Shown: piece after piece, positions 156-17,573 of the stretch
Numbering within the stretch: the first letter of the stretch is position 1
Layout: every line of letters begins with the position of its first letter
Source of the DNA: a virus
DNA length: 29,559 nucleotides
IMG/VR virus record: IMGVR_UViG_3300033156_001057
Span: 1-29,559 of that record
Reading direction: 5' to 3' (one strand)
Notes under the pieces: model-generated
The model's input: the letters and a program-made list of their open reading frames with translations, nothing else
Database searches by the model: none
What the model was told of the DNA's origin: nothing
Translations under genes and position numbers: made by a program

Positions 156-427
156 TGGCAAGAACAAGGAACTCTACCAGAGCCAACCTGGGATTTGAAG
201 ACAAGCTGTGGGCAGCCGCCGACAAGCTTCGTGGCAATATGGACGCCGCCGAATACAAACACGTCGTCCTTGGCTTCATTTTCCCCAAGTACACCTCCGG
301 CACCTTTTCTCGTGGCGTTCGAGGGATCGAACACCACGGTACCGGCGGTTTGGAGCTGACCATCCATAACCTTGACGATCCGGAAAAGGCAAAACCACTA
401 ATCCAGAAGAGTTTTGAAGAAAACTGA
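155..427 (+). pseudogene. HsdM N-terminus fused to a DUF5655-like C-terminus (chimeric remnant)
   Basis: This 90-residue frame starts exactly like a type I restriction-modification methylase subunit (HsdM). After a short leader come NLGFEDKLWAAADKLRGNMD and AAEYKHVVLGFIF, the conserved first ~45 residues. It then leaves that family. The last ~35 residues (VRGIEHHGTGGLELTIHN, then EKAKPLIQKSFEEN) resemble the end of DUF5655-type proteins, where a (W/H)GTG-LE-T motif precedes EKAKPLI-KSY. No methylase motif (DPPY, FxGxG) is present, so it cannot be an active methylase. The simplest reading is an in-frame deletion scar between two former genes. It overlaps the previous gene (TAATG) and the helicase (TGATG), so translation through it may still feed the operon. 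A small functional protein cannot be excluded. Confidence 0.65.
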
Positions 428-3279: not shown

Positions 3280-3280
3280 C

Positions 3281-4984
3281 ATGGCCCAAAGAACGGATAC
3301 AACCAGCCGAATTACCGTTTACCGCTTGAAGGATAAGCAAGAACTTTCTACGGTTTCCATTTCGCATTGTCGCAAGGTGGCGGAGGGCACCGAAGCACAA
3401 ACGGCATTTGAGTACGCCCTTTGGTTTGCAGACTTTGGCGAATATACGCCAAACTGGTATCCCCCATTCAAAACAATTACAAATACACGTCCTGTAGCCA
3501 AGCAGTCAGGCTTTGTTCTCTTGGTAAATACTCCCAATGCAACCTATGGATGTACTGGCGGTCTTGGTTATCACAAACTGCTTGAGTGTTTCAAGATAGA
3601 GCCGCGTTTTGGAATTACCCTGGCAAAAAAGGTCATGGCAGTGGTCAATTTGAAGGGACTGGTTCAGAAGGATGCAAGCGGCATTGTCAATAATCTCGAT
3701 CGAGTGTTTCGGGGAACATACAATCCGCAAGGGGATATTGACAATCTTCATCGTGTCCTAACGAACATTCGTGCGTCTTTCCCGAAGGGAAGCGAGAAGT
3801 ACGCCGAAATCGGCGCGAGTATTAGGGCTGGAGATTCGTTGGCCGCAAACGGGGCTAAGGACTTCGCTGGAATCTTCGCCTTCATTAAGAAGATCGATGA
3901 GTTGTGGAATGACGACTGCCAAGGTTTGTCCATCCCCGAACTGGAACATATCAATCCAAAACATGACAAAGCCTTAGTGGGTGAGCTGAATCAGGTGCTG
4001 GCCCGCGAGATACTGAAATTCCGGGAAGAGGGGCAGGAAGAACGCCCGAATTTATTCCTCGACAATATCAGCATGGGTTATCTCCCAGATCGAGTGACCA
4101 AATACACTATTACTCATCACCGACAGCAGCACGACTTCTCGACCTATCGAGAGGTCTTTGAAAAACTTGCGGACATTCTGGCAGAATATGATGGTGAGGA
4201 GGATCTGCTGTACACCACGCTGGAATCGGTCAAGATCAAGCTTACGTTTGATGATGACTTCGTTAACAAGCCTAAGCCGATCCTACATTATATTTGCGGC
4301 GACGTAGTACTGAACAATGAAGCGTACTTCATCAACAACGGTTTGTGGTTCAAGGCGAACGCGGGCTTTATTGAGAAGGTGAATTCTGAGCTGGATGAAG
4401 TGCTGTATTTGCCTCCCGACGAGTTCGCGCTCCAGGAATGGAACAACACGGAGGATGAAAACGCCTACAACAGCAAACACGCAGGCCCCGCGCTTGTTGT
4501 ATTGGATCGCCACCTTGTAAGAATCCAACAGGAGAGCGGCCCCATCGAGTTCTGCGACCTCCTACGTCCTGAAGAGGATGGCCAAGTTAGCATAATACAT
4601 GTCAAGAGGGCAAGTGGCGCAGCTCTGCGTGCGTTGTTCGCCCAGGGCTATGTGTCGGCCCGACTCTACTCGGAGAGTGATGAATTCCGACACAAAGTGC
4701 ATGATGCAGAAGTGAGCGGCAGCAACACACTCTCCCAACAGGACAAGGATGAACTTGCCGCCCTCGCGGAGAGACCGAAGCGAGAGTTGTGTGTCGTGTA
4801 TGCTATTTATGACGATACACCATCGCATTGTGTAGAGAATGACGCAGAAAAGGTTACGGAAGCCCTTGACGGCACACTCACCCTCTTCGCCAAGATCGAT
4901 CTTCTGGGCAGGGTGCAAGCAATTCGGTCTCTTGGGTATGACGTAGTAATGACCCGAATTAAACCATACCCCGCACAGGACTGA
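3281..4984 (+). CDS. DUF6119 / TIGR04141-family protein
   Basis: A 567-residue protein that I place in the sporadically distributed TIGR04141 (DUF6119) family. Support comes from overall length and the conserved-looking C-terminal half: a CGDV block, a segment with LWFKANAGFIEKVN, then IEFCDLL followed by IHVKRASGAALRALFAQG. The molecular function of the family is not established. It recurs patchily in genomes and often near defence genes. The long reading frame extends upstream to 2786 inside the helicase gene, but ATG 3281 is preferred: it sits 7 bases after GGGAGGTG and one base after the helicase stop. Base use is visibly AT-richer than in the flanking restriction genes, fitting separate acquisition. 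It occupies the first cargo position between helicase and methylase and is followed immediately by a Mod/helicase scar. Confidence 0.75.
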   Translation: MAQRTDTTSRITVYRLKDKQELSTVSISHCRKVAEGTEAQTAFEYALWFADFGEYTPNWYPPFKTITNTRPVAKQSGFVLLVNTPNATYGCTGGLGYHKLLECFKIEPRFGITLAKKVMAVVNLKGLVQKDASGIVNNLDRVFRGTYNPQGDIDNLHRVLTNIRASFPKGSEKYAEIGASIRAGDSLAANGAKDFAGIFAFIKKIDELWNDDCQGLSIPELEHINPKHDKALVGELNQVLAREILKFREEGQEERPNLFLDNISMGYLPDRVTKYTITHHRQQHDFSTYREVFEKLADILAEYDGEEDLLYTTLESVKIKLTFDDDFVNKPKPILHYICGDVVLNNEAYFINNGLWFKANAGFIEKVNSELDEVLYLPPDEFALQEWNNTEDENAYNSKHAGPALVVLDRHLVRIQQESGPIEFCDLLRPEEDGQVSIIHVKRASGAALRALFAQGYVSARLYSESDEFRHKVHDAEVSGSNTLSQQDKDELAALAERPKRELCVVYAIYDDTPSHCVENDAEKVTEALDGTLTLFAKIDLLGRVQAIRSLGYDVVMTRIKPYPAQD

Positions 4985-4988
4985 ATAC

Positions 4989-5122
4989 ATGACGAAACAG
5001 AAAACGCAACCTGAGTTGACGGGCATACGAAAGAACAACCAGCCGTGGCTGGAGTCGAGAAACAACTCGAACAACACTGGAGCATCAGGATGTTGTTCCC
5101 TATCAGGTGGGAGGTGAACTGA
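4989..5122 (+). pseudogene. Recombination scar: Mod-like 5' end joined to helicase 3' end
   Basis: Two relics are joined here. ATG 4989 opens a frame whose first 24 residues match the start of the Mod methylase at 7748 in 14 of 24 positions (MTKQKTQPELTGIRKNNQPW against MAKRKTKLELTWIGKENRPK). From 5054 another frame reads VEKQLEQHWSIRMLFPIRWE and ends at TGA 5120-5122. This aligns without gaps to the last 22 codons plus stop of the helicase (3211-3279), with 52 of 69 bases identical by my count. The Mod frame itself runs out at TGA 5115-5117 (42 residues). The helicase relic keeps the GGGAGGTG and TGATG arrangement that starts the next gene. It is therefore the left border of the Thoeris cassette. 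Confidence 0.75.
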
Positions 5123-5964
5123 TGCGAATCGCAAAGCTGTTGGTCCAGTCGCTGCTTGCCGCATTTGGTGCGGTATGGCTTGTCTTGGAGGCATATTACA
5201 GTTTGGCCAATACTGCTCCTGATAATCGCATCGGCTTCTCGGGACTTCTGGTTATGAGCCTCGTTCTTGGGGTTGCCTGGTTCATCCTGGATGGGCTCTT
5301 CTTTGCGGGTTACCTGAAACAATCAATTGAAATTAGGAGCAATGCTTTCGATACCTCCATACAGATTGTCTTTGCCGATCTATTCTCGCAGAATGGTTTT
5401 AAGGCCGTTTCGGTCAACGAGTTCTTTGACAGCACAGTTGATGGCGATCACGTATCAGAGGATTCACTTCATGGAATCATGTTGAAAAGGTACTGGGGCG
5501 GAAACATAAGCGACTGGGATAAGCAGGTCGCGGAGGAGCTCAAGAGCATACAGCCCAATGAGGTGGTGGCTGATCGGCCTACCCCAGGGAAGCCGAATAG
5601 GTATCCGATCGGGACAACCGTGAAGGCTTCTACCAATAGCCAGGATTTTCTCTGTGTGGCAATAGCAAGCACGGACGTCGAGACTCTTCAGGCATCGGCA
5701 AACTCGGATGACTTGCACAAGGCTCTTCGGGGTCTGCTCTGCAAAGCTCGAATTGTCTGTTCCGGTGATACCTTGAACATCCCACTACTAGGTAGCGGCC
5801 TCGCCAGGACAGGGATCAAGCCAAACATCATCGTCGATCTAATCCTCTTGACCATCTTCGAAGAAAGTAAAAAGCAGAAAATTACGAACCACATCAGGAT
5901 CGTGCTTCCCAAAAACATGAGGAAACGCATCGACCTGACCGCCATCCAGAAAGATTGGAGGTAA
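5122..5964 (+). CDS. Membrane-macro domain effector, type II Thoeris ThsA-like (DUF6430)
   Basis: A 280-residue protein with two hydrophobic helices (about residues 5-25 and 39-62), then a soluble domain. Its C-terminal part contains IPLLGSGLARTG near 220-232 followed by an alpha-beta segment, as in macro-like DUF6430 domains. In type II Thoeris, a transmembrane protein with a macro domain senses an ADP-ribose-derived signal made by the TIR partner and acts at the membrane, causing abortive defence. The directly adjacent gene is a ThsB-type TIR protein, which makes this assignment strong. ATG 5122 was chosen over GTG 5107 because GGGAGG lies 7 bases upstream of it and it overlaps the stop of the helicase relic (TGATG). 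The effector mechanism is taken from the family, not from this sequence. Confidence 0.78.
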   Translation: MRIAKLLVQSLLAAFGAVWLVLEAYYSLANTAPDNRIGFSGLLVMSLVLGVAWFILDGLFFAGYLKQSIEIRSNAFDTSIQIVFADLFSQNGFKAVSVNEFFDSTVDGDHVSEDSLHGIMLKRYWGGNISDWDKQVAEELKSIQPNEVVADRPTPGKPNRYPIGTTVKASTNSQDFLCVAIASTDVETLQASANSDDLHKALRGLLCKARIVCSGDTLNIPLLGSGLARTGIKPNIIVDLILLTIFEESKKQKITNHIRIVLPKNMRKRIDLTAIQKDWR

Positions 5965-5967
5965 ACC

Positions 5968-6555
5968 ATGGCCTACAGAAATGGAACCTACGTCGCTTTT
6001 CACGCCGGTGGAACAACTGATCCGGCAGCATCCGACATTAAGTATTACAACATAATGAAGGCGTGGGATGCCAGCAAAACGGTTGAATTCGCCTTCACGA
6101 ACAGCCACGAAAAGACATCGGCTGTGCGCGATAGTAGCAAGCGAGCGACTCTGGAACGCCGCATCAAGGAGCGCCTGAACAATTCGAAGCATCTTGTTCT
6201 GATTCTCACGGGTATTACCAAACACGACACCGACTGGGTTCCATTCGAAATTCGATATGCGGTCGATGACTGCGATCTACCTATCATCGCGGCATACCCG
6301 GACTACAGAGTAATCCTTCATCCGCATCTCTTGTCGGACTACTGGCCTCAGGCCCTGGCATCAAGGATCGGGAATGCCAATGCCAACGTGATCCATATTC
6401 CCTTCGCCAAGGAACCGCTTCTGGATGCAATTGGCCAGTTCTCAGTTAACGCGAAGTCTCCTAATGGCGCACACGTGTGTTACACTGCTGATACCCATAG
6501 AAAGTGGGGATTGCTGAATGCCTATGAACAGGAACAGAACTACTTGAAATCGTGA
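5968..6555 (+). CDS. thsB: Thoeris ThsB, TIR-like (DUF1863 type) signalling enzyme
   Basis: A 195-residue single-domain protein with the ThsB/TIR-like pattern: NGTYVAF near the start, SDIKYYN, INSH-type NSHEKTSAVRDSS, then ERLNNSKHLVLIL, WVPFEIRYAVD, LPIIAAYP and IHIPFAKEPLLDAI. ThsB proteins recognise phage and convert NAD+ to an ADP-ribose-type messenger that triggers the ThsA partner. The messenger chemistry is known for the family and is not readable here. A strong GGAGG lies 6 bases before ATG 5968, three bases after the effector gene, so the two are expected to be co-translated in stoichiometric amounts. Together they form a complete two-gene type II Thoeris module sitting inside a restriction operon. 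Confidence 0.82.
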   Translation: MAYRNGTYVAFHAGGTTDPAASDIKYYNIMKAWDASKTVEFAFTNSHEKTSAVRDSSKRATLERRIKERLNNSKHLVLILTGITKHDTDWVPFEIRYAVDDCDLPIIAAYPDYRVILHPHLLSDYWPQALASRIGNANANVIHIPFAKEPLLDAIGQFSVNAKSPNGAHVCYTADTHRKWGLLNAYEQEQNYLKS

Positions 6556-6562
6556 GTTGAGC

Positions 6563-7726
6563 ATGGCGAAACAGAAAACGAAAACTGGAATGTCTCAAAT
6601 CGGTAATGACAAACCGTTGATTGCATGGCTGATCTTGGTGTACGACCGAACGGCCGAGGAACGATTCCCTTTCAAGAGAAAGTGGTATCGCTTTGACTAT
6701 ACCCGTGCCACGCAAGAGGAGGTTCGTGATGTGCTCCATATCTGCGGGCAGAAGGACGATACTGGCTTACCACCCGAACAGGACATGAAGCTGGGCGACA
6801 CCCGCGTATCGTTTCAGCTGGGCGGTAGCAGCGGAACAAGCACACGAATCCTGCAATATCGCCACCTCTTTGAATATGTTCCGGACGAGAGTCGCGTTTT
6901 CTCCGAAGAAGAAGCATCTACCAGCTTCCTGTCCGTTACGCTCCCTCCAGACTCCTATTTTGAGGATGAGAATGAGAACCCCATTACTCTAACGCAGATA
7001 TTCGATGAGGAAGCTCGACGGAGTGGCGGTAACGACGCTTTCGCTATCGTAATGGATCAGCCGGAATCGATTCTCCGATGTGGACCGGTGCAACCAATAC
7101 GACCAGAGCTGTGGCGCAAAGTTAGTGCGGACTTGATGGGACAGCTGTTCGATGTTTGTCGTCAGCTCTTCCATAGCCGTTGGCTTAAAAGCGAGTGCGT
7201 CGTATCCCCTGACGCAAAGGGTTCCTTGCAGGCGGTGCTTCCGATACGCGAAGACTGCATGGCAGTGATCCTGCCATTTCGCCAACTTTATTCGAAGGGC
7301 GGCAGCGATGATCTGTTCAACCGTTGCTGCAAGATCCACGCCCGTCATTGTCCTGCGTCGCACCCGATGCATTGTTGGGTTGAGGAATACAAGAAGCAGT
7401 TTAATGCGTTTCTGAAAGCCCCGGTTGGCTTTCCTTTGAACGGATGCACCCTTGCAGCAAGGCGATACCTCGACGCATTCTCTTACGGTGCCAAGGTAGT
7501 GCATGTCACCAGCAGGACAAACACGCCAGCCGAAGACTGGGATTACCTGCTGCGGTCATTTCCGAAGGAAATGGTCATTATGGGTTATCATTATATCCTC
7601 AGGACGCTGTTGCACAGCGTTTCCATGGCCACACCAGTGTTGTGGCAAAATGTTGGTCATTGGATCAATGAGTGCGGCTGGACTGGAACTGTGCGGCCTG
7701 GAACATCCAATCCATTTGAGGCATAA
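6563..7726 (+). CDS. Unrecognised 387-residue protein with a Mod-derived N-terminus
   Basis: I do not recognise the family. The protein is soluble-looking, with no signal peptide or clear membrane segment. Notable features are a low-complexity GGSSGTSTR stretch near residue 90, an acidic stretch around 130-140 and a Cys/His-rich segment RCCKIHARHCPASHPMHC near 252-269 that could bind a metal. Its first ~14 residues (MAKQKTKTGMSQIG) copy the start of the downstream Mod protein (MAKRKTKLELTWIG), and the first 21 bases are almost identical. The real ancestral start may therefore be ATG 6590, with the leader gained by recombination. TTG 6557 is less likely. It lies 7 bases after ThsB and could be a third Thoeris-associated gene, but the scar at its start argues it is a separate cargo gene. 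Confidence 0.6.
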   Translation: MAKQKTKTGMSQIGNDKPLIAWLILVYDRTAEERFPFKRKWYRFDYTRATQEEVRDVLHICGQKDDTGLPPEQDMKLGDTRVSFQLGGSSGTSTRILQYRHLFEYVPDESRVFSEEEASTSFLSVTLPPDSYFEDENENPITLTQIFDEEARRSGGNDAFAIVMDQPESILRCGPVQPIRPELWRKVSADLMGQLFDVCRQLFHSRWLKSECVVSPDAKGSLQAVLPIREDCMAVILPFRQLYSKGGSDDLFNRCCKIHARHCPASHPMHCWVEEYKKQFNAFLKAPVGFPLNGCTLAARRYLDAFSYGAKVVHVTSRTNTPAEDWDYLLRSFPKEMVIMGYHYILRTLLHSVSMATPVLWQNVGHWINECGWTGTVRPGTSNPFEA

Positions 7727-7747
7727 GCCCCCAAGGAAAACAGGTAG

Positions 7748-9490
7748 ATGGCGAAACGAAAAACGAAACTCGAACTGACTTGGATCGGGAAGGAGAATCG
7801 ACCGAAGCTGGAGCCGAGGATTCTGATCGAAGATCCGGAAAAGTCGTATCACGCGGCCCACCGGGTCGGCGAGAACGACATCTTCGACAATATGCTGATC
7901 TTCGGGGACAACCTGCTGGCCCTCAAGGCGCTCGAGCAGGAGTTCACCGGCAAGATCAAGTGCATCTTCATCGACCCTCCTTACAACACGGGTTCTGCGT
8001 TCAGTCACTACGACGACGGTGTTGAACATTCTTTGTGGCTGTCGCTTATGCGCGACCGCTTGGAGCTTCTCCGCCGGCTTCTTTCGGATGATGGCTCGCT
8101 CTGGATCACCATCGATGACAACGAGTGTCATTACTTGAAAGTCCTGTGTGACGAGATATTCGGTCGAGCCAACTTTGTAGCGAATGTTGTCTGGCAGAAG
8201 AAGTACTCTCCTCAGCCAAACGCGATTTGGTTGTCAGACAGCCACGACCATGTCCTATGTTACGCTCGTAATAAGGACATATGGAGGCCGAATGGATTGC
8301 CGCGCACCGAGGCAATGAATCGCCGCTACAAGAATCCAGATAACGACCCAAGGGGGCCATGGAAGCCCGCTGATTTTACCATCAGTCTTACTGGCGGACA
8401 GCGAGGAGCACAATACGCACGAACCGGTGAATCTGCGAACATATACGAGATCACAACGCCATCCGGAAGGAAGCTAAGGCCAGCGAATGGCAGATGCTGG
8501 GGTGCTTCGCCTGAAAGGTATAAAGAGCTGTTAAATGACAATCGCATCTGGTTCGGAAAAACAGGAAACAATGTTCCGGCACTCAAGAAATTCTTATCTG
8601 AGGTCCAAGACAAGGACGTCGCAAAGACAATCTGGTTCCGCGACGAGGTGGGCGACAATCAGGAAGCAAAGAGAGAAGTCGCGGCTTTTAATCGGGAAGA
8701 GATATTCTCGACGCCAAAACCGGAGCGACTTATCCAGCGTATTCTGACTTTAGCTACGTCATCTGGAGACATTACGCTTGATTCCTTCGCCGGCTCGGGC
8801 ACGACCGGAGCGGTTGCTCACAAGATGGGCCGGCGTTGGATTATGGTAGAGTTGGGCGAGCATTGCCACACGCACATTATCCCTCGGATGAAAAAGGTTA
8901 TAGACGGCGAAGACCAGGGCGGCATCACCAAAGCGGTCAATTGGAAAGGCGGCGGAGGCTTTCGCTATTACCGCCTGGGGCCGACGCTCATTGTCAAAGA
9001 CGAATGGGGCAACCCGGTCATCAACTCCGAATACAACGCTGCGATGCTGGCCGAGGCGATCTGTAAGCTGGAGGGTTTCAAATACGCCCCCAGCGACGAG
9101 GTGTACTGGATTCACGGCCACAGCACGGAGCGGGATTTCATCTACGTTACCACGCAAACCCTGACCCGCGGCCAGCTCCAGCGCCTCAGCGACGAGGTGG
9201 GCGAGAAACGCAGCCTGCTGGTGATGTGCGGCGCGTTCCGCGTGCGGAACCTGGACGACTTTCCCAACCTGACGGTCAAAAAGATTCCCAAGGCGGTCCT
9301 GCGTAAGTGCGAGTGGGGCCACGATGATTACTCACTGGAGATCAAGAACCTCCCCGCCGCCCCGCCAACGCTGGATGAAGAAGAACCGGAAGAGAAACCG
9401 GCCAAACCCCGGCGGAAGTTCGGCAAGGGCAAGGACACGGGGCCCACCTTGTTTGATATGAACACGGCCGGCTCGAAGGGAGGCAAGTAA
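7748..9490 (+). CDS. Type III-like DNA N6-adenine methyltransferase (Mod)
   Basis: A 580-residue site-specific methylase that should transfer methyl from S-adenosylmethionine to adenine and protect host DNA. Catalytic motif IV is FIDPPYNTGSAF (DPPY at 76-79) and the SAM-binding motif I is FAGSGTTG near 346-353. The order IV before I marks the beta class used by type III Mod subunits. Residues ~135-330 are the expected target-recognition region. That stretch is plainly AT-richer in base use than the two ends, suggesting exchange of the recognition domain. The C-terminus has a charged Pro/Glu/Lys-rich tail. ATG 7748 follows AAGGA. The gene is 2 bases from rhuM and 1 kb upstream of the Res partner. 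Confidence 0.88.
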   Translation: MAKRKTKLELTWIGKENRPKLEPRILIEDPEKSYHAAHRVGENDIFDNMLIFGDNLLALKALEQEFTGKIKCIFIDPPYNTGSAFSHYDDGVEHSLWLSLMRDRLELLRRLLSDDGSLWITIDDNECHYLKVLCDEIFGRANFVANVVWQKKYSPQPNAIWLSDSHDHVLCYARNKDIWRPNGLPRTEAMNRRYKNPDNDPRGPWKPADFTISLTGGQRGAQYARTGESANIYEITTPSGRKLRPANGRCWGASPERYKELLNDNRIWFGKTGNNVPALKKFLSEVQDKDVAKTIWFRDEVGDNQEAKREVAAFNREEIFSTPKPERLIQRILTLATSSGDITLDSFAGSGTTGAVAHKMGRRWIMVELGEHCHTHIIPRMKKVIDGEDQGGITKAVNWKGGGGFRYYRLGPTLIVKDEWGNPVINSEYNAAMLAEAICKLEGFKYAPSDEVYWIHGHSTERDFIYVTTQTLTRGQLQRLSDEVGEKRSLLVMCGAFRVRNLDDFPNLTVKKIPKAVLRKCEWGHDDYSLEIKNLPAAPPTLDEEEPEEKPAKPRRKFGKGKDTGPTLFDMNTAGSKGGK

Positions 9491-9492
9491 TC

Positions 9493-10542
9493 ATGGCGGA
9501 CATCGTACCCCAAAGCCCGGGCGGAGAGTTCCTGCTCTACCAGACCGAGGACGGCCAGACACGCATCGAATGCCGCTTCCAAGGGGAAACGGTCTGGCTG
9601 ACGCAGCAGCAGATGGCGGAGCTGTTCGGCGTGGACAAATCCGGCGTAAGTCGCCACTTGAAAAACATTTACGAATCGGGCGAGCTGTCGCAGGAGGCAA
9701 CTGTTGCAAAATTTGCAACGGTTCAAACCGAGGGTCGGCGGCAGGTTGAGCGGGAGATTGAGCATTTCAACCTCGACGCGATTATCTCGGTGGGCTATCG
9801 GGTCAACAGTCTGCGCGGCACGCAATTCCGTATCTGGGCCACGCAGCGCCTGCGGGAATACATCATCAAGGGATTCGCCTTGGACGATGAGCGGCTCAAG
9901 GAGGCCGGCGGAGGCCTTTACTTTGATGAGCTGCTCGCCCGCATCCGGGATATACGCTCGTCGGAGAAGGTCTTCTGGCGCAAGGTGCTGGATATCTACG
10001 CCCTGAGTATCGACTACGACCCGAACACGGATGTTTCCCGCGAGTTCTTCGCGGTGGTGCAGAACAAGATGCACTGGGCGGCGCATGGGCATACGGCTGC
10101 GGAGATCATCGACCAGCGCGTGGACGCGGCCCGGCCCAACATGGGGCTGACGACGTGGCGAGGTGATAAGCCCCGGATGGAGGATGTGAGTATCGCCAAG
10201 AATTACCTGAACGAAAGGGAACTCGATACCCTCAACCGGATCGTAACAATGTACCTGGAATTCGCCGAGTTGCAGGCTTTGAACCGCAAGCCGATGACCA
10301 TGCGAGATTGGATAGCCAAGCTGGATGATTTTCTCAGACTCAGCGAACGGGATATTCTTACTCACGCCGGGACTGTCAGCCACGAGCAGGCCCTTGCCAA
10401 GGCTCGCGAGGAATACGAGAAATATCGCCGGGAGCATCTGAATGATCCTTCGCCGGTTGAGAAACATTTTCTGGAGGCCGTGAAGGAAGTGAAACAACTG
10501 GAAGAGTCAAAAGACCCTTCAGATAAGGAGGGTTCAAAATGA
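9493..10542 (+). CDS. rhuM: RhuM-family protein
   Basis: A 349-residue member of the RhuM family (virulence RhuM-type proteins). The N-terminal part has a helix-turn-helix, WLTQQQMAELFGVDKSGVSR (about residues 35-55). The family core follows with SVGYRVNSLRGTQFRIWATQ, LREYIIKGFALDDERLK, then the RIRDIRSSEKVFWRKV and MHWAAHGHTAAEII blocks. The biochemical role is unknown. RhuM genes are repeatedly found inside restriction-modification and other defence loci, as here between Mod and Res. It starts 2 bases after mod and overlaps res by ATGA, so it is translationally tied to both. A regulatory or toxin-like accessory role is inference. Confidence 0.87.
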   Translation: MADIVPQSPGGEFLLYQTEDGQTRIECRFQGETVWLTQQQMAELFGVDKSGVSRHLKNIYESGELSQEATVAKFATVQTEGRRQVEREIEHFNLDAIISVGYRVNSLRGTQFRIWATQRLREYIIKGFALDDERLKEAGGGLYFDELLARIRDIRSSEKVFWRKVLDIYALSIDYDPNTDVSREFFAVVQNKMHWAAHGHTAAEIIDQRVDAARPNMGLTTWRGDKPRMEDVSIAKNYLNERELDTLNRIVTMYLEFAELQALNRKPMTMRDWIAKLDDFLRLSERDILTHAGTVSHEQALAKAREEYEKYRREHLNDPSPVEKHFLEAVKEVKQLEESKDPSDKEGSK

Positions 10543-13244
10543 GCATCCAACACGTCAACGCCATCAGCAATCGCCTGAGCCTGCGGCCGCCACAGCGGGA
10601 TTCATTGGAAATCCTCGCTCGCGTCTGCGAGATCATCTCGCTCGAAAAGGATGGTGATACCGCCCAGGCCCTGGAGACGATCAAAAGCGAGTTCCCGACT
10701 GTCGAGGACTTTGAGCGGGATTTCCCGTCGCTATGCTTTGCCCTGGCTACCGGTGTGGGCAAAACGCGATTGATGGGCGCGTTCATCAGCTACCTGTACC
10801 TGAGCGAAGGGATACGGCATTTCTTCGTTTTGGCTCCGAACCTGACGATCTACAACAAGCTCGTGGCTGATTTCACCCCGAACACGCCCAAGTATGTCTT
10901 CAAGGGCATCGGCGAGTTCGCCCAGACCCCGCCGATGCTCATCACCGGGGACAATTACGAAAGCGGCGGCGGTGTGCGGCGAGGGGCGCTGTTCGACATG
11001 GGCGAGGTCCACGTCAATATCTTCAATATCTCGAAGATCAACAGTGAGGTGCGAGGTGGCAACGCACCACGCATCAAGCGATTGAGCGAATACATCGGCC
11101 AGAGCTACTTTGATTACCTGGCCGGGCTGGACGACCTGGTGATGCTGATGGACGAGTCGCACCGCTACCGGGCCAGTGCGGGTGTGCGCGCGATCAACGA
11201 ACTCAAGCCGATCCTGGGGCTGGAGTTGACGGCCACGCCGCAGGTGGAACGCGGCCAGCGTACCGAGCCGTTCAAGAACGTGATCTACAGCTATCCGCTG
11301 AGCAGCGCGATGAACGACGGATTCGTGAAAGAACCCGCCGTTGCGACGCGGGAGAACTTTGATGCCGCGAACTACTCGGTCGAGGGACTGGAGAAGGTCA
11401 AGCTCGAAGATGGTATCCGGATTCACGAGAATACAAAGGTCGAGCTCGAAGTCTACGCCCGCAACAACGAGAAGCCGATCGTCAAGCCGTTCATGCTGGT
11501 AGTGGCCCAGGATACGACGCATGCCAACGCCCTACAGCAGGTCATCGAGAGTGATGATTTCTTCGAGGGCAGGTACAAGGGCAAGGTGATTACCGTCCAC
11601 TCGAACGTGCGTGGCGAAGAGAAGGACGAGGTCGTTGAGCAATTGCTCACAGTCGAAAGCCCGGACAATCCTGTGGAGGTGGTAATACACGTCAACATGC
11701 TCAAGGAGGGTTGGGACGTTACGAACCTGTTCACCATCGTACCGCTGCGGGCCGCGAACTCACGGACATTGGTCGAGCAATCGATCGGTCGGGGTCTGCG
11801 CCTGCCGTACGGACAGCGCGTGGGCGTTCCGGCCGTGGATCGCCTGACCATTGTGTCGCACGACAAGTTTCAAGAGATCATCGATCATGCCAATGACCCC
11901 GATTCGATCATCCGGACCGGCGTGGTGATCGGCAAGGATATCCCGGAAACGGGCAAGAAGGCTGTCGTGGTTGAATCGAAGTTTGAACAGATGATCTCAG
12001 TGCCACCGGCGTCTGGAGGAGCCGACAAGCCGGCACGAAGTCGAGGCTTATTCGAGAAGCCTGAAGAGCAGGAAGTCGCCAGAGCAACGTTCCAGGTGAT
12101 TCGTCAGTATGAACGTCTGCGTGGAAGCGACCAGCTCCAGAAAGCGGACATCCAGAAAGAAATCGTCGAGAAGGTCCAGGATATTATCCGGCCGAAGCAA
12201 GGTGTGCTGGAATTCGTCGAGCAAGTGGATGTCCCAACGGTTGTCGAGAAGACAACGGAACTCTACCAGGAAATGTCCATCGACATTCCGAAGATCGTGG
12301 TCGTACCCAAGGGTGATGTGACCGTGGGATACGAAGATTTCGATCTCGACACGAGCAATATAAACCTCCAACCGGTCGCACAAGACATCCTAATTCAACA
12401 TCTTCACGACATGCAGCGATACAAGCTTCGGGACGGGTCGGGAATCGTTGAGGAAGACCGCCCCGAAGACTACCTGGTGCGCGGGCTGATCGACTTCAAC
12501 GACATCAGCTATGACGATCATGCTGCATTGCTCTATAAGTTGGCCGGACAGGTGGTGGCCCATCTTCGGACGTATCTGACCAAGGAGGAAGACGTATTGA
12601 ACGTCCTGCAGTACCACCAGCAATCGCTGGTGAATCTGATCCACGCACAGATGCAGGTTCATTTCGTGGAATCCGCTACTGCGTATGAAGCCCATGTGAC
12701 GAAGGGCTTCCGCACATTACGGCCCAACAACTACACCGCTAGCGCTGACGAGGACGTGCGCGACTTCCGCACGGCGGTCCCGGAGGGCGAAAGACATCGG
12801 ATCAAATCGATGCTGTTCGGTGGCTTCCAGAAGTGCCTGTATCCGGTGCAGAAGTTCGATTCCGATCCAGAGCGACGTTTCGCGGTGATCTTGGAGAACG
12901 ATGAGAATGTCCTAAAATGGTTCAAACCCGCTAAGGGCGACTTTCAGATTCACTACAGCCATGAGGACTCCTACGAACCAGACTTCGTTGTGGAAACGAA
13001 AGCAGGGAAGTTTCTTTGCGAGCCGAAACAAGCCAACGAAATGACCGATGAGACGGTTCTCGCCAAGGCAGACGCGGCTGCGATTTGGTGCGAACGCGCA
13101 ACAAGCAATTCGGCGGAGATCGGTGGTAAGCCGTGGAAGTATCTCCTGATTCCACACGATCAGATATCGGAGCAAATGAGTCTTGCGGGTTTGGCAAGTC
13201 GGTGTACCTACGCCCCAAGAAAGCGAGATGTTACCGGCTCATAA
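10539..13244 (+). CDS. Type III-like restriction enzyme Res subunit
   Basis: A 901-residue helicase-nuclease. The SF2 motor shows Walker A ATGVGKT (about 70-76), DESH in LMDESHRYRA (near 204-207), TATP (near 231-234) and motif VI SIGRGLRLPYG. The C-terminus carries a PD-(D/E)XK-type nuclease pattern: P814-D815 in EPDFVVETKAGKF, then E828-x-K830 in CEPKQANE. With Mod it would cleave DNA unmodified at the recognition site, using ATP-driven movement along DNA. The start overlaps rhuM by four bases (ATGA). Length fits the COG3587 Res family. It is the last gene of the continuous helicase-to-Res run. Only a short stub separates it from the AAA+ gene. Confidence 0.88.
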   Translation: MSIQHVNAISNRLSLRPPQRDSLEILARVCEIISLEKDGDTAQALETIKSEFPTVEDFERDFPSLCFALATGVGKTRLMGAFISYLYLSEGIRHFFVLAPNLTIYNKLVADFTPNTPKYVFKGIGEFAQTPPMLITGDNYESGGGVRRGALFDMGEVHVNIFNISKINSEVRGGNAPRIKRLSEYIGQSYFDYLAGLDDLVMLMDESHRYRASAGVRAINELKPILGLELTATPQVERGQRTEPFKNVIYSYPLSSAMNDGFVKEPAVATRENFDAANYSVEGLEKVKLEDGIRIHENTKVELEVYARNNEKPIVKPFMLVVAQDTTHANALQQVIESDDFFEGRYKGKVITVHSNVRGEEKDEVVEQLLTVESPDNPVEVVIHVNMLKEGWDVTNLFTIVPLRAANSRTLVEQSIGRGLRLPYGQRVGVPAVDRLTIVSHDKFQEIIDHANDPDSIIRTGVVIGKDIPETGKKAVVVESKFEQMISVPPASGGADKPARSRGLFEKPEEQEVARATFQVIRQYERLRGSDQLQKADIQKEIVEKVQDIIRPKQGVLEFVEQVDVPTVVEKTTELYQEMSIDIPKIVVVPKGDVTVGYEDFDLDTSNINLQPVAQDILIQHLHDMQRYKLRDGSGIVEEDRPEDYLVRGLIDFNDISYDDHAALLYKLAGQVVAHLRTYLTKEEDVLNVLQYHQQSLVNLIHAQMQVHFVESATAYEAHVTKGFRTLRPNNYTASADEDVRDFRTAVPEGERHRIKSMLFGGFQKCLYPVQKFDSDPERRFAVILENDENVLKWFKPAKGDFQIHYSHEDSYEPDFVVETKAGKFLCEPKQANEMTDETVLAKADAAAIWCERATSNSAEIGGKPWKYLLIPHDQISEQMSLAGLASRCTYAPRKRDVTGS

Positions 13245-13264
13245 GAAAACGCGAGGAAATGCAA

Positions 13265-13369
13265 ATGAACCATATTCGGCTTGGACAATTACCGCGAAGC
13301 AGGAAATGGCGAAACGTCGTTGAACTCGTCGCTGCCGAGCTAGCCATTCCATCGTTAGCGGCTACATGA
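13265..13369 (+). pseudogene. 34-codon N-terminal gene stub
   Basis: Between res and the AAA+ gene, ATG 13265 (8 bases after GAGG) opens a 34-residue frame beginning MNHIRLGQLPRSRKWRNVVE and ending at TGA 13367-13369. The amino-acid composition looks like the ordered start of a larger protein rather than random sequence, and it stops abruptly. ATG 13259 is an in-frame alternative. I read it as the remaining 5' end of a deleted gene, in line with the other scars in this island, but a genuine small peptide is possible. No parent family could be named with confidence. Confidence 0.4.
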
Positions 13370-13382
13370 GAAAGGACGAGCG

Positions 13383-16325
13383 ATGCCTTCTCAATATGAA
13401 CCCAAGAATCATATCGTTCATGTGGATGTCGCGCCACGCAGCGAAGGCATCCTCGACCAGCGCGAAATCGCTATTCAGTCCTATCAGACCACGATTCCGT
13501 TCGACTATGACGCTCTGAACGAAGGCCTTGAGGCTGCCTGGCTGACACCGCAGATACGGTTCGGCGTGTTTGCCCGCACACTGCTAAAGGCCGACGATGC
13601 TCTAAACGTCGTGCTTGGGCTTCAGGACGAGCTCTCGGTTCGGGCCTACGACTACGATCGGCGTCGCCCCCTGTGGTTTTCGTGGCAGGACGTGATCGTC
13701 GACACGGTGAACATCCGTTACTACCGAGACGACGGTGGGCTTCTGCGATTCAAAACCACCGGCGGTGGACGAAGGATTACCGATGATCGTCTGCAGGAAT
13801 TCAATGCGGCATTCCTGAATATCCCCAAGGACACGGTCAAGAAGCGGGACTTTGACCTTGAGAGGCTTCGTGAGCTCTGTTTCGACCGGTTCGTCGACCG
13901 CCTCTATATGCTTCGCTTTTCCGGTCCTTCTGGAGAAGAGTATCGCAGCATCGATCACGCCATGTTCCAGAGTCGCCGATACATTGACCCGCAGGCGGAA
14001 CGACTTCACGAGGTTCAAGACGACACCGAGGTCACCATTGAGTCTTTTGACTCCGACATTGAGGTGCACGCGGAAGATTTGGCCGCCCCGATCCAAGTGC
14101 GGTTTTTCATTCGCGGCCGGAGCGGGTCGCTACGGCTGCGGTTCCCCAAGATCAGCTACAAAAGCGAACAGAAGACAGTGGAAGAACAAGCACGTATTTT
14201 CTATCGGCTTGTGGATGTCACCGAGAACTTAATTCTGGACGCCGACTACTACACGCACCTGCCGAGGTCGCTTAATGAACTGGACATCGAATTGGGTCTG
14301 TTTCCGGACAACGTAGATCTCACGCAGTTCCGGGAGGTCCTCACGAGTGCGCATGCTCGCAAACAGTTTATCGAGAACCTTGACCTGGGAGCACCATGGC
14401 ACGAGTGGAAGCCACATCTTCGAGCGCTTGATGAGCTTCTTACGTCGGATGTTGTCAGCGATCATGTTGCAGAACTGACGAAGACCCTGGCAAAGGCCGA
14501 TCCGCAGCAAGCCATACGGTTGCTCACCACTTGTCAGCGTGATACGCAGATGAGCCGCGTTGGAACCGTTGTAGCGCACGCAGTCGCGGGCGAGGTTCAG
14601 TCTATCCCAGCGGAGATTCGTGCGCAAGTCGAGGAATCGCTTCTGTCATGGGCGGTTGACCGTGAAGAGGGGAGCTGGGATATTGATCCAGAGACCGGGG
14701 ACATCAGCGTTTTGGACCTCCGGTGGCAGCTTGATGATCTGTCGCTTGATGTAATCCCAAGCGTGCTGTGGAAACTGGTCGGCGTCCTGCATGCGCGCCT
14801 GAGAGCCTGTAGTAACGGAGTGGGGCCGCTCCTGGAGAAGTATGCTTGGTGTATTGCTCAAGCGAAGGCTCTGCCGCCGAATCACTCAAAGAACCCGGCG
14901 GCACTCCGTCTGGTCGCCGCTCGTCGAATACCTAAGTCCGTCCATGACGGGTCAAAGGTGCTCAAGGAACCCGTTAGCGACCTTCCTGCCCTCGATGAAG
15001 GCGTGCTGGATCAGTATGGCCTTCCTCTATGGCCCCAGCTTACTGCGAGCAGAAGCGACAAGAGGGTAATCATATCGAATACAGGCATAGGCGCTGCGAT
15101 TGGGCTGGTCGCACGTCCAGCTGGTGTTCTTTTCGGTGATAACGGTCAGCCGTCTTCGACCGATGTGATTGCTGGCGAGTCCGCTGCGTTTTCCGTGGCG
15201 GATAACGTAACGGCCATCAAGGCAGAGTTTGAGAAGTTCGGACGGCGGTATCAAGCGACCCTCGAGGTTGCTGGAAAACTGCCATCGACAGGTGTTGCCA
15301 ACAATGTCCGCGCGTTGCCCGCCGCCATCAACCGCAAACGCCGTGCGGCGCAACGCGAGTATCGTGAGGCCATTGATCCGCAAGGAATCGTGGTGGGATC
15401 AAGCTCTGCAATGCTGGAGGTCTTCGAGAACATCCACTATGCCAACGCAATGGATGGCTGCGCATCTGTGCTCCTCCTGGGAGAGCCTGGCGTCGGAAAG
15501 ACGCATATCGCGCAGCTGCTGCATAAATCGAGCCCCCGAGCGTCAAAGGAATTCAAGGTGGTCAACGCCGGTGGCGGCGGTGGAGACATCAATATCCAGC
15601 GTGGTGAATGGATCGGCTACGGCAAGGGACATGGGATTCAAGGCGTCGACAGTAAGGGACGTGCCGGTCACTTGATAAACGTAGATGGCGGAACACTGTT
15701 TGTCGACGAATTCGCCACCATGTCGCAGGACCTGCAGGTGATCTTCCTGTCCGTGCTCGAGGGCCGTGCCATCGAGAAGATTGGCGGAGATCCCGTAACG
15801 CCGGACGTCCGATGCATATTCGCCACCAACGCCGACATCGACGCGGCTGTGGCAGCCGGTACTCTTCGACGAGACCTCGTTGACCGCATTCGCATCACCT
15901 TTCGCATCCCACCATTGCGGGATCGCCGCGGCGACATACTCATTCTGGCGAAACACTTCGCTGCCGACCACGGCATAACAGATCGTTGTCTGGCCGCGCT
16001 TCTTCGCTACGACTGGCCGGGCAATGTTCGCGAGTTGCAGAATCTGGTTGATCGTGCCGCAGCACGCAAGAGGACCGAGGACTCGGTGGCCATTGACTTG
16101 GGACACATCGATCTGCCCGGTGAAATCACCACAGTCGTTGAGGCACTCGATGATAACGCTTGTCGGCGAGAGCTCTGGTGCCTCGCCGATGAAATAGCCC
16201 GTGACGAAGGCTTTGCTCCGGGGGCTGGCCTCCAGCGACGAGCTGGCGAGATCATGGGGGTTGGTGAAGCGCAGGCGTCGAAGATGTACCGGGCGCACGG
16301 TCTCACGAGCGCCGCCACAGCCTGA
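13383..16325 (+). CDS. AAA+ ATPase of sigma-54-activator type lacking the GAFTGA loop, with large N-terminal region
   Basis: A 980-residue protein. The C-terminal third is a sigma-54-activator-like AAA+ domain: Walker A GEPGVGKT (700-707), Walker B GTLFVDEF (770-777), sensor FATNADID, the arginine-finger region RRDLVDRIRI, PPLRDRRGDI and YDWPGNVRELQNLVDRA. A helix-turn-helix-like tail follows. The sigma-54-contacting GAFTGA loop is replaced by GHGIQG (749-754), so ordinary sigma-54 activation is doubtful. The first ~650 residues match no family I know. They are probably a sensor, with beta-rich and helical parts and no membrane helix. The start has AAGGA 5 bases upstream. The gene follows res in the same direction and may sense infection or control this operon or the next gene, where a -24/-12-like site lies. 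That link is inference. Confidence 0.72.
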   Translation: MPSQYEPKNHIVHVDVAPRSEGILDQREIAIQSYQTTIPFDYDALNEGLEAAWLTPQIRFGVFARTLLKADDALNVVLGLQDELSVRAYDYDRRRPLWFSWQDVIVDTVNIRYYRDDGGLLRFKTTGGGRRITDDRLQEFNAAFLNIPKDTVKKRDFDLERLRELCFDRFVDRLYMLRFSGPSGEEYRSIDHAMFQSRRYIDPQAERLHEVQDDTEVTIESFDSDIEVHAEDLAAPIQVRFFIRGRSGSLRLRFPKISYKSEQKTVEEQARIFYRLVDVTENLILDADYYTHLPRSLNELDIELGLFPDNVDLTQFREVLTSAHARKQFIENLDLGAPWHEWKPHLRALDELLTSDVVSDHVAELTKTLAKADPQQAIRLLTTCQRDTQMSRVGTVVAHAVAGEVQSIPAEIRAQVEESLLSWAVDREEGSWDIDPETGDISVLDLRWQLDDLSLDVIPSVLWKLVGVLHARLRACSNGVGPLLEKYAWCIAQAKALPPNHSKNPAALRLVAARRIPKSVHDGSKVLKEPVSDLPALDEGVLDQYGLPLWPQLTASRSDKRVIISNTGIGAAIGLVARPAGVLFGDNGQPSSTDVIAGESAAFSVADNVTAIKAEFEKFGRRYQATLEVAGKLPSTGVANNVRALPAAINRKRRAAQREYREAIDPQGIVVGSSSAMLEVFENIHYANAMDGCASVLLLGEPGVGKTHIAQLLHKSSPRASKEFKVVNAGGGGGDINIQRGEWIGYGKGHGIQGVDSKGRAGHLINVDGGTLFVDEFATMSQDLQVIFLSVLEGRAIEKIGGDPVTPDVRCIFATNADIDAAVAAGTLRRDLVDRIRITFRIPPLRDRRGDILILAKHFAADHGITDRCLAALLRYDWPGNVRELQNLVDRAAARKRTEDSVAIDLGHIDLPGEITTVVEALDDNACRRELWCLADEIARDEGFAPGAGLQRRAGEIMGVGEAQASKMYRAHGLTSAATA

Positions 16326-16433
16326 CTTTCCTCCAGGCCCTAGATACTTTCCTCTTCGTCGGGTTGTCTTTCCTGGCCCGTCTTCACACTTCGAATACCG
16401 CCGTTTCCCCTGCAAAAGTGCCCTTTTCTGAAT

Positions 16434-16449
16434 TGGCACACCTGTTGCT
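16434..16449 (+). promoter_or_regulatory. Sigma-54-like -24/-12 promoter sequence
   Basis: TGGCACACCTGTTGCT fits the sigma-54 consensus TGGCAC-N5-TTGC at all ten fixed positions. GG (16435-16436) and GC (16447-16448) are separated by the exact 10 bases. Transcription would start near 16460, only two bases before ATG 16462, giving an almost leaderless message or implying a later start codon. It lies 108 bases after a gene for a sigma-54-activator-like ATPase. A chance match is not excluded, and that ATPase lacks the GAFTGA loop. Confidence 0.4.
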
Positions 16450-16461
16450 TTTATGTAGGGC

Positions 16462-16791
16462 ATGAGCGCGAACCCAAAGAAACAGAATCTCTCGTTAGCA
16501 CAACAACGACTCATCGAACTCATGCAGCGGATCAATTTTGGCCGCATCGAAGGGTTATCGGTGCGCCGTGGCCAGCCGGTGCTGGACCCGCCGCCGCGTG
16601 TGGTCCGCGAGATCAAGTTCGGCGGCGAGAACGGACCACGCCCAGAGGCCACCAAGCAGGACTTCGAGCTGAAGGCGTTGGTGCGGGACCTCTTTGCCCA
16701 CCTGGAGGCAATGGGCAATGGAGTCGTGCGGTGCATCGAGATCAAGCACGGCCTTCCCTTCCGGATGACCGTCGAGGAGGTGTTCGCCTAA
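16462..16791 (+). CDS. Small protein of unknown function (109 aa)
   Basis: I do not recognise this 109-residue soluble protein. It starts with a polar leader, then a helix (LAQQRLIELMQRINFGRIEG), a Pro-rich loop (QPVLDPPPRVVREIKFG) and an alpha-beta segment ending in CIEIKHGLPFRMTVEE. Amino-acid use looks like a real, constrained protein. ATG 16462 has only a weak ribosome site (AGGG). The next in-frame ATG, 16522, also lacks a good one. It stands between the defence island and the sigma-factor-led operon and has 185 non-coding bases after it. It probably belongs to the mobile element. Confidence 0.6.
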   Translation: MSANPKKQNLSLAQQRLIELMQRINFGRIEGLSVRRGQPVLDPPPRVVREIKFGGENGPRPEATKQDFELKALVRDLFAHLEAMGNGVVRCIEIKHGLPFRMTVEEVFA

Positions 16792-16865
16792 GCAACGGGG
16801 GTCGGCTCCCCACATGAGATGTGAAGTAAAGGAACTGAGTACCTGACAACTAACCGGCCACGAAG

Positions 16866-16971
16866 TGGAGGCGTTGTGGGTGCCGCAGAAGCGGCAATCC
16901 TGCAACGCCTCCACTGCATGTGGTCGCCGCTTCGGTTGGCACCCACGCGACGCCTCCCGGCCAACGGGAGG
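16866..16971 (+). promoter_or_regulatory. Structured leader with alternative pairings hiding the sigma-gene ribosome site
   Basis: A perfect 11-bp inverted repeat (TGGAGGCGTTG 16866-16876, CAACGCCTCCA 16903-16913) encloses a second perfect hairpin (TGCCGC 16881-16886, GCGGCA 16891-16896, loop AGAA). Downstream, CCTCCCG 16953-16959 pairs with CGGGAGG 16965-16971, which is the ribosome binding site of the sigma gene. GGAGGCGT (16867-16874) can pair equally with ACGCCTCC at 16905-16912 or with the identical ACGCCTCC at 16950-16957. The second choice would break the hairpin that hides the ribosome site. This is a two-state switch by sequence; function is inferred. Confidence 0.45.
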
Positions 16972-16976
16972 TCCAA

Positions 16977-17573
16977 ATGGACACCAACAAGAAGCAGTAC
17001 GGAATCAATGATTACGGGGAAGAACTCATCCACCACAAGGCCCGCCAACTCGTCGGCACGGCGGGCTTCACCGTGGATGACGTCGAGGATTTGGAACAAG
17101 AGATGAGACTCGACCTGTTGGAACGCTTACCGAAGTTCGACCCGAACAAGGCCACGTACAACACGTTCGTCTCCCGACTCGTCGAGCGGAAGATCAGTAA
17201 TCTGATCCGCCATCGTACACAAGAGATGCGCGACTTCCGATGCGAGGAAGGCTCGATCCATGACGTTGTCGAGTCCGGCGACAGCGGCGACGAAAAAGTC
17301 GAACGCATCGAGACCGTCACGCAGGATGAGCAGGATTTTCGTTTGGGCAAGCACGTTCGTTCGACGGAAGAACGTTGCGATCTGAAGTTGGATATTTCGC
17401 TCGTGCTGTTGAAGCTTCCGCCCGATCTGCGGGAATTGGCGGAGCTCCTACAGGCCATGTCCATCACCGATGTGGCCCGTGAGTTGGGTATTGCCCGGCC
17501 TACGGTTTACGACCGCCTCAAGCGATTGCGTCAAGCCTTCGAAGAACTGGGAATCCACGGCCAATTGTACTGA
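16977..17573 (+). CDS. Sigma-70-family RNA polymerase sigma factor of a mobile element
   Basis: A 198-residue sigma factor of minimal (ECF-like) layout. Region 2 is seen at about 35-85, with DLEQEMRLDLLERLPKFDPN and TFVSRLVERKISNLIRHR. An acidic linker covers ~90-125. Region 4 lies at 145-192 (LPPDLRELAELL, then the helix-turn-helix SITDVARELGIARPTVYDRL). It would direct host RNA polymerase to the element's own promoters. ATG 16977 is 5 bases after GGGAGG. The frame is open back to 16920, but there the sequence is the structured leader. It heads the recombination and replication genes and is followed by 77 bases containing a partly paired stem (CCGACGGTTT 17578-17587 with AAACCGCGTCGG 17628-17639). 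No anti-sigma gene is adjacent. Confidence 0.82.
   Translation: MDTNKKQYGINDYGEELIHHKARQLVGTAGFTVDDVEDLEQEMRLDLLERLPKFDPNKATYNTFVSRLVERKISNLIRHRTQEMRDFRCEEGSIHDVVESGDSGDEKVERIETVTQDEQDFRLGKHVRSTEERCDLKLDISLVLLKLPPDLRELAELLQAMSITDVARELGIARPTVYDRLKRLRQAFEELGIHGQLY

Follow-up and report, generated by a model that had tools for sequence, protein, structure and literature searches.

Leaders in which alternative helices expose a ribosome site are already known as a kind of regulatory device. Translational attenuators of the ermC type share with the leader described here mutually exclusive helices, one of which covers the Shine-Dalgarno; unlike them, our leader has no conserved leader peptide and carries an added third partner, the 5′ strand P. 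The toxin mRNAs hok and H. pylori aapA1 (PMC6733600) also have an early 5′ hairpin that is replaced by a longer-range pairing controlling translation, whereas the leader studied here lies in no toxin-antitoxin locus, has a sigma factor as its target and showed no antisense RNA or 3′ processing. In the case of the families of Rfam release 15, riboswitches included, the likeness lies in the leader position and the alternative helices. As in a riboswitch, a conserved covarying aptamer-like domain (the hairpin P:A, found before two modules) is followed by an alternative expression platform, which differs between the modules. No conserved short leader ORF, as in leader-peptide attenuators of the ermC or trp type, was found, nor, in the window, the G+C-rich hairpin followed by a U-tract that marks an intrinsic attenuator.

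No family of Rfam release 15 reached its gathering score, and at E≤1 only unrelated miRNA and sRNA families appeared, with scores far below cut-off. Structured-RNA surveys (PMC2864571, PMC11109978) have, according to their main text, likewise found motifs upstream of genes by covariation, and that main text holds no motif upstream of phage sigma factors. Rfam and the open-access literature searched apparently describe neither this leader family nor its strand with three partners, nor the use of such a leader ahead of a phage sigma factor and of a recombination module; the Planctomycetes motif Rhodopirellula-1 (no Rfam number in the survey table) stands outside that comparison.

Gene layout and segments of the leader

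The window, that is, the whole stretch of DNA analysed, comprises 29,559 bases and is a virus record of IMG/VR. The four segments that the initial annotation had singled out between 16867 and 16971 were all found in place by reading the sequence and with a repeat finder, and the gene that follows is, as it had proposed, that of a sigma factor (PHROG 1740, Sigma70_r2). The features needed below are:

427-16325: dense block of defence-type genes upstream of the leader, including a DrmD-like SNF2 helicase
5107-5964: Thoeris ThsA, in the defence block
5968-6555: Thoeris ThsB, in the defence block
7748-9490: type III restriction methylase, in the defence block
9493-10542: RhuM/PDC-S05 protein, in the defence block
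10539-13244: type III restriction nuclease, in the defence block
13383-16325: RtcR/PspF-like sigma-54 activator, in the defence block
16462-16791, plus strand: 109-aa upstream gene, distantly DUF2292-like, adjoining nearly every sigma leader
16841-16852, plus strand: strand P (5′ strand), partner of A
16841-16883, plus strand: sensor-like hairpin P:A (covariation, own-versus-cross test, covariance model match)
16865-16884, plus strand: strand A, common to three mutually exclusive helices, covarying with P, B and D
16867-16874: GGAGGCGT, first segment of the initial annotation
16891-16914, plus strand: strand B, partner of A in the A:B hairpin, including 16905-16912
16905-16912 and the identical 16950-16957: ACGCCTCC, partner segments of the initial annotation
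16938-16957, plus strand: strand D, whose 3′ end covers the ribosome site in states other than A:D
16953-16959: CCTCCCG, complement of CGGGAGG at 16965-16971
16953-16971, plus strand: hairpin sequestering the ribosome site (16953-16959 with 16965-16971)
16965-16971, plus strand: Shine-Dalgarno segment CGGGAGG, read from the sequence, 5 nt ahead of the ATG at 16977
16977-17573, plus strand: sigma-70-type RNA polymerase sigma factor, 198 aa (phrog_1740, E 1.6e-16; Pfam Sigma70_r2, 8.5e-7)

Strand A can enter three helices. With P it forms a hairpin made of 16841-16843:16879-16881, a 2-nt bulge, 16846-16850:16873-16877, 16854-16855:16870-16871 and 16858-16861:16865-16868, closed by a 3-nt loop; with B it forms a helix of 16865-16886 with 16891-16914, longer than the segments first annotated; and with D it forms 9 bp (16876-16884:16938-16946) and 8 bp (16867-16874:16950-16957). 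For the 141-nt region the folding energy is -80.5 kcal/mol, whereas 200 dinucleotide shuffles gave -52.8±3.95, none of them as low (z -7.0). With a fold of -80 kcal/mol, simple melting of the ribosome-site cover, as in an RNA thermometer, is unlikely. The P:A hairpin is matched by its covariance model at a single site in the whole window (64.5 bits, E 3e-15). A short G/C hairpin without a T-run (16796-16811, e.g. GGGGGTCGGCTCCCC) follows the stop of the 109-aa gene in most relatives as well.

The sigma product passes the cut-off for Sigma70_r2, and its region 4 (E 1e-4) falls just below the curated cut-off. Among cultured phages, the 109-aa protein has no relative and the sigma factor only a weak match, in Wolbachia phage WO. 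The 109-aa protein resembles DUF2292 weakly (E 0.004); its AlphaFold model is confident (pLDDT 90.5), with two helix-strand-strand repeats, and Foldseek against the PDB gave no match, a second look yielding nothing above Z 2.8 and no solved relative. A scan of 16400-17000 for sigma-70-type promoter and terminator patterns gave none. Two candidate leader peptides were rejected: the frame opening at GTG 16876 does not stay in register among relatives, with no conserved start or stop, and the ORF at 16813-16845 lacks its TGA end in many relatives (ACCAGACA), being present, among those read, only in the window and in L003.

Distribution of the family and covariation of its pairings

One 18-mer of the leader is found without mismatch in 28 IMG/VR stretches, and in 28 of 28 the whole leader lies between a homologue of the 109-aa gene and the sigma gene. 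Sampling independent of the motif, by searching with the 109-aa upstream protein and then reading the gap to the sigma gene, yielded 77 distinct leaders, with just two loci lacking the sigma gene (L122, L051). Further leaders came from a Candidatus Brocadiaceae contig (L005) and additional Planctomycetota genomes, bringing the family to 90 leaders in IMG/VR contigs and Planctomycetota genomes, which represent 35 lineages less than 80% identical. Nearly all 90 sit between the same two genes. In one Planctomycetota genome (L148) the 109-aa and sigma genes are directly adjacent, with no leader between them; the same genome holds another hairpin match elsewhere, before DUF2924 (G109). A distant sigma relative (L004) has no such leader. 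Virus record L033 carries on its minus strand (10212-10911) a second sigma gene and, with it, an apparent second, divergent leader copy that is truncated by the end of the contig. The two most divergent leaders, L119 (3446-3526) and L145 (1836-1917), have altered P, A and D jointly and kept their pairings, and A-right reads GGGAACG in place of GTGGGTG. As a separate observation, the Sak4-like ATPase of the Brocadiaceae element (L005, 5156-7003) is apparently split in its Walker A motif by a putative intein, which starts after GIGK with AQPLDAKVLTPTGF and ends LLTHNSTWG.

Conservation of the leader starts sharply at ACC 16841-16843, the outer arm of P:A. Because it starts there, and because the conserved hairpin needs 16841-16883, the comparison argues that functional transcripts include 16841-16883.

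Which strands pair with which was assessed in three ways. In an alignment-free test, segments were cut by anchors and the duplex energies of each lineage's own strands were compared with those of strands swapped between the 35 lineages; an independent-pair test used path-disjoint pairs on the tree of the two proteins, by which shared ancestry is removed; and columns were counted in MAFFT alignments made without structure. P:A, with its 5′ strand extended to 16841, gave z -6.3 (independent-pair p 5e-4), whole A with B z -9.8 (p 5e-5), whole A with D z -8.6 (p 0.003) and the ribosome-site hairpin, which has compensatory arms in relatives, z -5.4 (p 4e-4). By parts, own-versus-cross values were -7.0 for A-left with B, -4.7 for A-right with B and -5.5 for the 5′ segment with A-centre. 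In the case of D, A-right gave the best supported long-range helix (z -8.8, p 2e-4), followed by A-centre (z -4.1, p 0.003) and A-left (z -2.4, p 0.014), the least supported part, which is not kept in L113. The GGAGG:CCTCC core of 16867-16874:16950-16957 is nearly invariant and therefore yields little covariation, so that the support for A:D is that of A-centre and A-right. Controls of the permutation test were mostly near zero, the exception being A-left against the Shine-Dalgarno side (z -2.5); in the independent-pair test all control pairings, this one included, were non-significant. A pairing of the two GGCC repeats, between the 5′ strand and either the segment after B or the loop of the ribosome-site hairpin, was discarded (own-versus-cross z -1.2 and +0.5).

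Column counts agree for the two hairpins. For P:A, 94.3% of cells are paired, both sides have changed in at least one lineage for 12 of 15 pairs, and covariation is 0.402 against 0.195±0.012 when shuffled, falling to about 0.1 or less when the partner is slid by 1-3 columns; for A:B, 86% are paired, with double changes in 12 of 21 pairs and covariation of 0.302 against 0.225. Counts for A:D were left out of the evidence because its blocks needed anchoring by complementarity, and the alignment-free tests were used instead; sites found with the hairpin-only model R2 were left out of the P:A evidence, since that model contains P:A. The mean energies of the lineages' own A:B and A:D helices are equal (-28.56 and -28.49 kcal/mol). 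In A:D, G-U occurs in 29 cells and A-C in 6, the asymmetry expected of RNA transcribed from this strand.

P:A and A:B draw on identical columns of A, which means that, as read from these alignments, selection maintains at least two exclusive folds; the third is A:D. At the level of comparative sequence evidence, strand A is shown to be kept for pairing with P, B or D in three helices that cannot coexist, and the 3′ end of D to pair otherwise with the Shine-Dalgarno. The covariation across relatives on which the initial annotation had staked its proposal is thus clearly present for P:A, A:B, A:D and the ribosome-site hairpin; mutually exclusive pairings governing ribosome-site access are strongly supported over the 35 lineages, and the leader ends, as described, in a hairpin over the sigma ribosome site. 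The exclusive pairings of its two-state scheme are likewise real, but the scheme was incomplete, having missed the third partner P, which lies outside the interval reported and forms the most strongly covarying hairpin. The helix of its second state, 16867-16874:16950-16957, exists and is plausible, yet the main long-range helix is 16876-16884:16938-16946.

Predicted states of the ribosome site and competing explanations

In constrained ensembles of the 35 lineages, the median opening of the ribosome site was 0.003 with A:B, 0.28 with A-right:D and 0.48 with both halves of A:D. Among the three pairings, A:D is predicted to be the only one that removes the cover. Stepwise folding of the growing RNA of the window gave P:A as the best structure at about 16879-16904 and A:B from 16909 onwards, with the ribosome-site hairpin appearing at the end, and A:D was never reached in this minimum-energy folding. 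The computed order is therefore P:A, A:B and ribosome-site hairpin, with the site closed in the A:B state and about half open with A:D. The leader had been called an on-switch; A:D is indeed predicted to open the ribosome site, but in the window the folding energies put the closed A:B state about 8.5 kcal/mol below the open one, so that a free on-switch is not automatic.

How would a single strand with three partners control translation? We favour, with a probability of roughly 0.6, the reading that the 5′ leader of this phage or prophage sigma-factor mRNA works as a strand-exchange switch. P:A would be a sensor-like or kinetic hairpin, after which A would be claimed by B (closed) or by D (open). 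According to the ON/OFF logic that the folding models suggest, A:B would be the OFF outcome; P:A would keep A from B during the synthesis of D, and A could then pass to D, leaving the ribosome site exposed (ON). Whatever makes P:A more stable or disrupts it would set the decision, for instance pausing of RNA polymerase, a ligand or a protein of the phage; the leader is probably a sensor of transcription kinetics, of a ligand or of a phage factor. That P:A acts as an ON helper is only a guess, because D would still close the ribosome site if P:A held permanently. The 109-aa protein, whose gene is nearly always adjacent, is a candidate partner.

Several other explanations deserve to be weighed. 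A static pseudoknot, in which a continuous A strand pairs through A-left with B and through A-right with D at the same time, with coaxial helices that either close off the ribosome site or are bound to a protein, would do without strand exchange. It would make use of the best supported long-range helix, A-right:D (z -8.8), which by our estimate of the geometry is sterically compatible with A-left:B. Nevertheless, covariation links A-right to P and to B (z -4.7) as well, and A-centre to P, B and D, and three partners for the same bases are unexplained by a single fold; we regard it as unlikely. A protein-bound translational operator, with P:A recognised by a phage protein (perhaps the 109-aa one) that represses or coordinates the sigma and recombination genes without real strand exchange, would explain why two gene modules are preceded by the same compact hairpin, with its conserved bulge and internal loop, and why the 109-aa gene is nearly always its neighbour. 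That A has been kept able to pair with B and with D would be left unexplained, however, and the search for solved relatives of the 109-aa protein gave none that hints at RNA binding, so that we give this explanation a low probability.

An equally low probability is given to a transcription attenuator, with A:B as an intrinsic terminator, P:A as its antiterminator and D secondary. In 12 of the 35 lineages (e.g. L120, L134, L149), the 8 bases that follow the A:B stem include at least 5 T, and there A:B may serve as a terminator; but in the window the stem is followed by no U-tract (TGCATGTGG) and no terminator-like site, and D and the ribosome-site hairpin covary although termination alone would not need them. 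Finally, strong inverted repeats located in mobile elements could be part of an origin or of a site for recombination or packaging, the palindromes only resembling RNA structure. The excess of G-U over A-C (29 against 6), the sharp 5′ boundary, the fixed position just ahead of the start codon and the covered ribosome site make such a DNA-level element highly improbable.

A second gene context and its implications

A covariance model of the first 78 leader positions, built with the A:B structure only, finds one leader per sigma locus and, in Planctomycetota genomes, also matches upstream of other genes. The clearest of these non-sigma matches lie ahead of a small ORF followed by DUF2924, where the first 48 nt (in L185, L186, L188 and others) give the same hairpin, (((..((((((.(((..((((...)))).))))))))).))). 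The hairpin-only model R2 adds further such sites, often two per genome or contig (G011, G221, G382, G002, G325), those of G221 being 44 kb apart on one contig. DUF2924 follows many of the non-sigma hairpin sites, and among the genomes checked a serine-recombinase-like ORF lies beside it in two (G221, G382). Some weak genome matches to R1 or R2 (e.g. L173-L175), apparently inside ordinary genes, were taken as chance. In the short leaders of the small ORF-DUF2924 module, the ribosome site or the start of the small ORF offers A another partner. Pairing of A with the ribosome site exceeds that of swapped pairs (z -2.5, p 0.005, n=16), and the control pairing of P with the ribosome site does not.

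The same hairpin stands before the small ORF-DUF2924 module, where the ribosome site is an alternative partner of A; P:A is therefore probably a sensor common to both modules, each with an output platform of its own. A further step, which we put forward as doubtful, is that one phage-wide sensor, the 44-nt P:A, heads both the sigma and the DUF2924-recombinase modules and sets them oppositely, a single signal choosing between integration and a sigma-driven programme. Read in this opposite sense, P:A would make the ribosome site accessible in the integration module, yet hold A from opening the sigma gene.

To our knowledge, little is known of phage biology in Planctomycetota, and phage decisions are usually credited to protein repressors. 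Here, an RNA element that is widespread and apparently undescribed lies ahead of both a sigma factor carried by phages and a recombination module. A strand with three partners, two of its long helices being equal in energy, would show RNA strand exchange clearly at work in nature, and the leader offers a directly testable regulatory switch as well as a search model for related elements.
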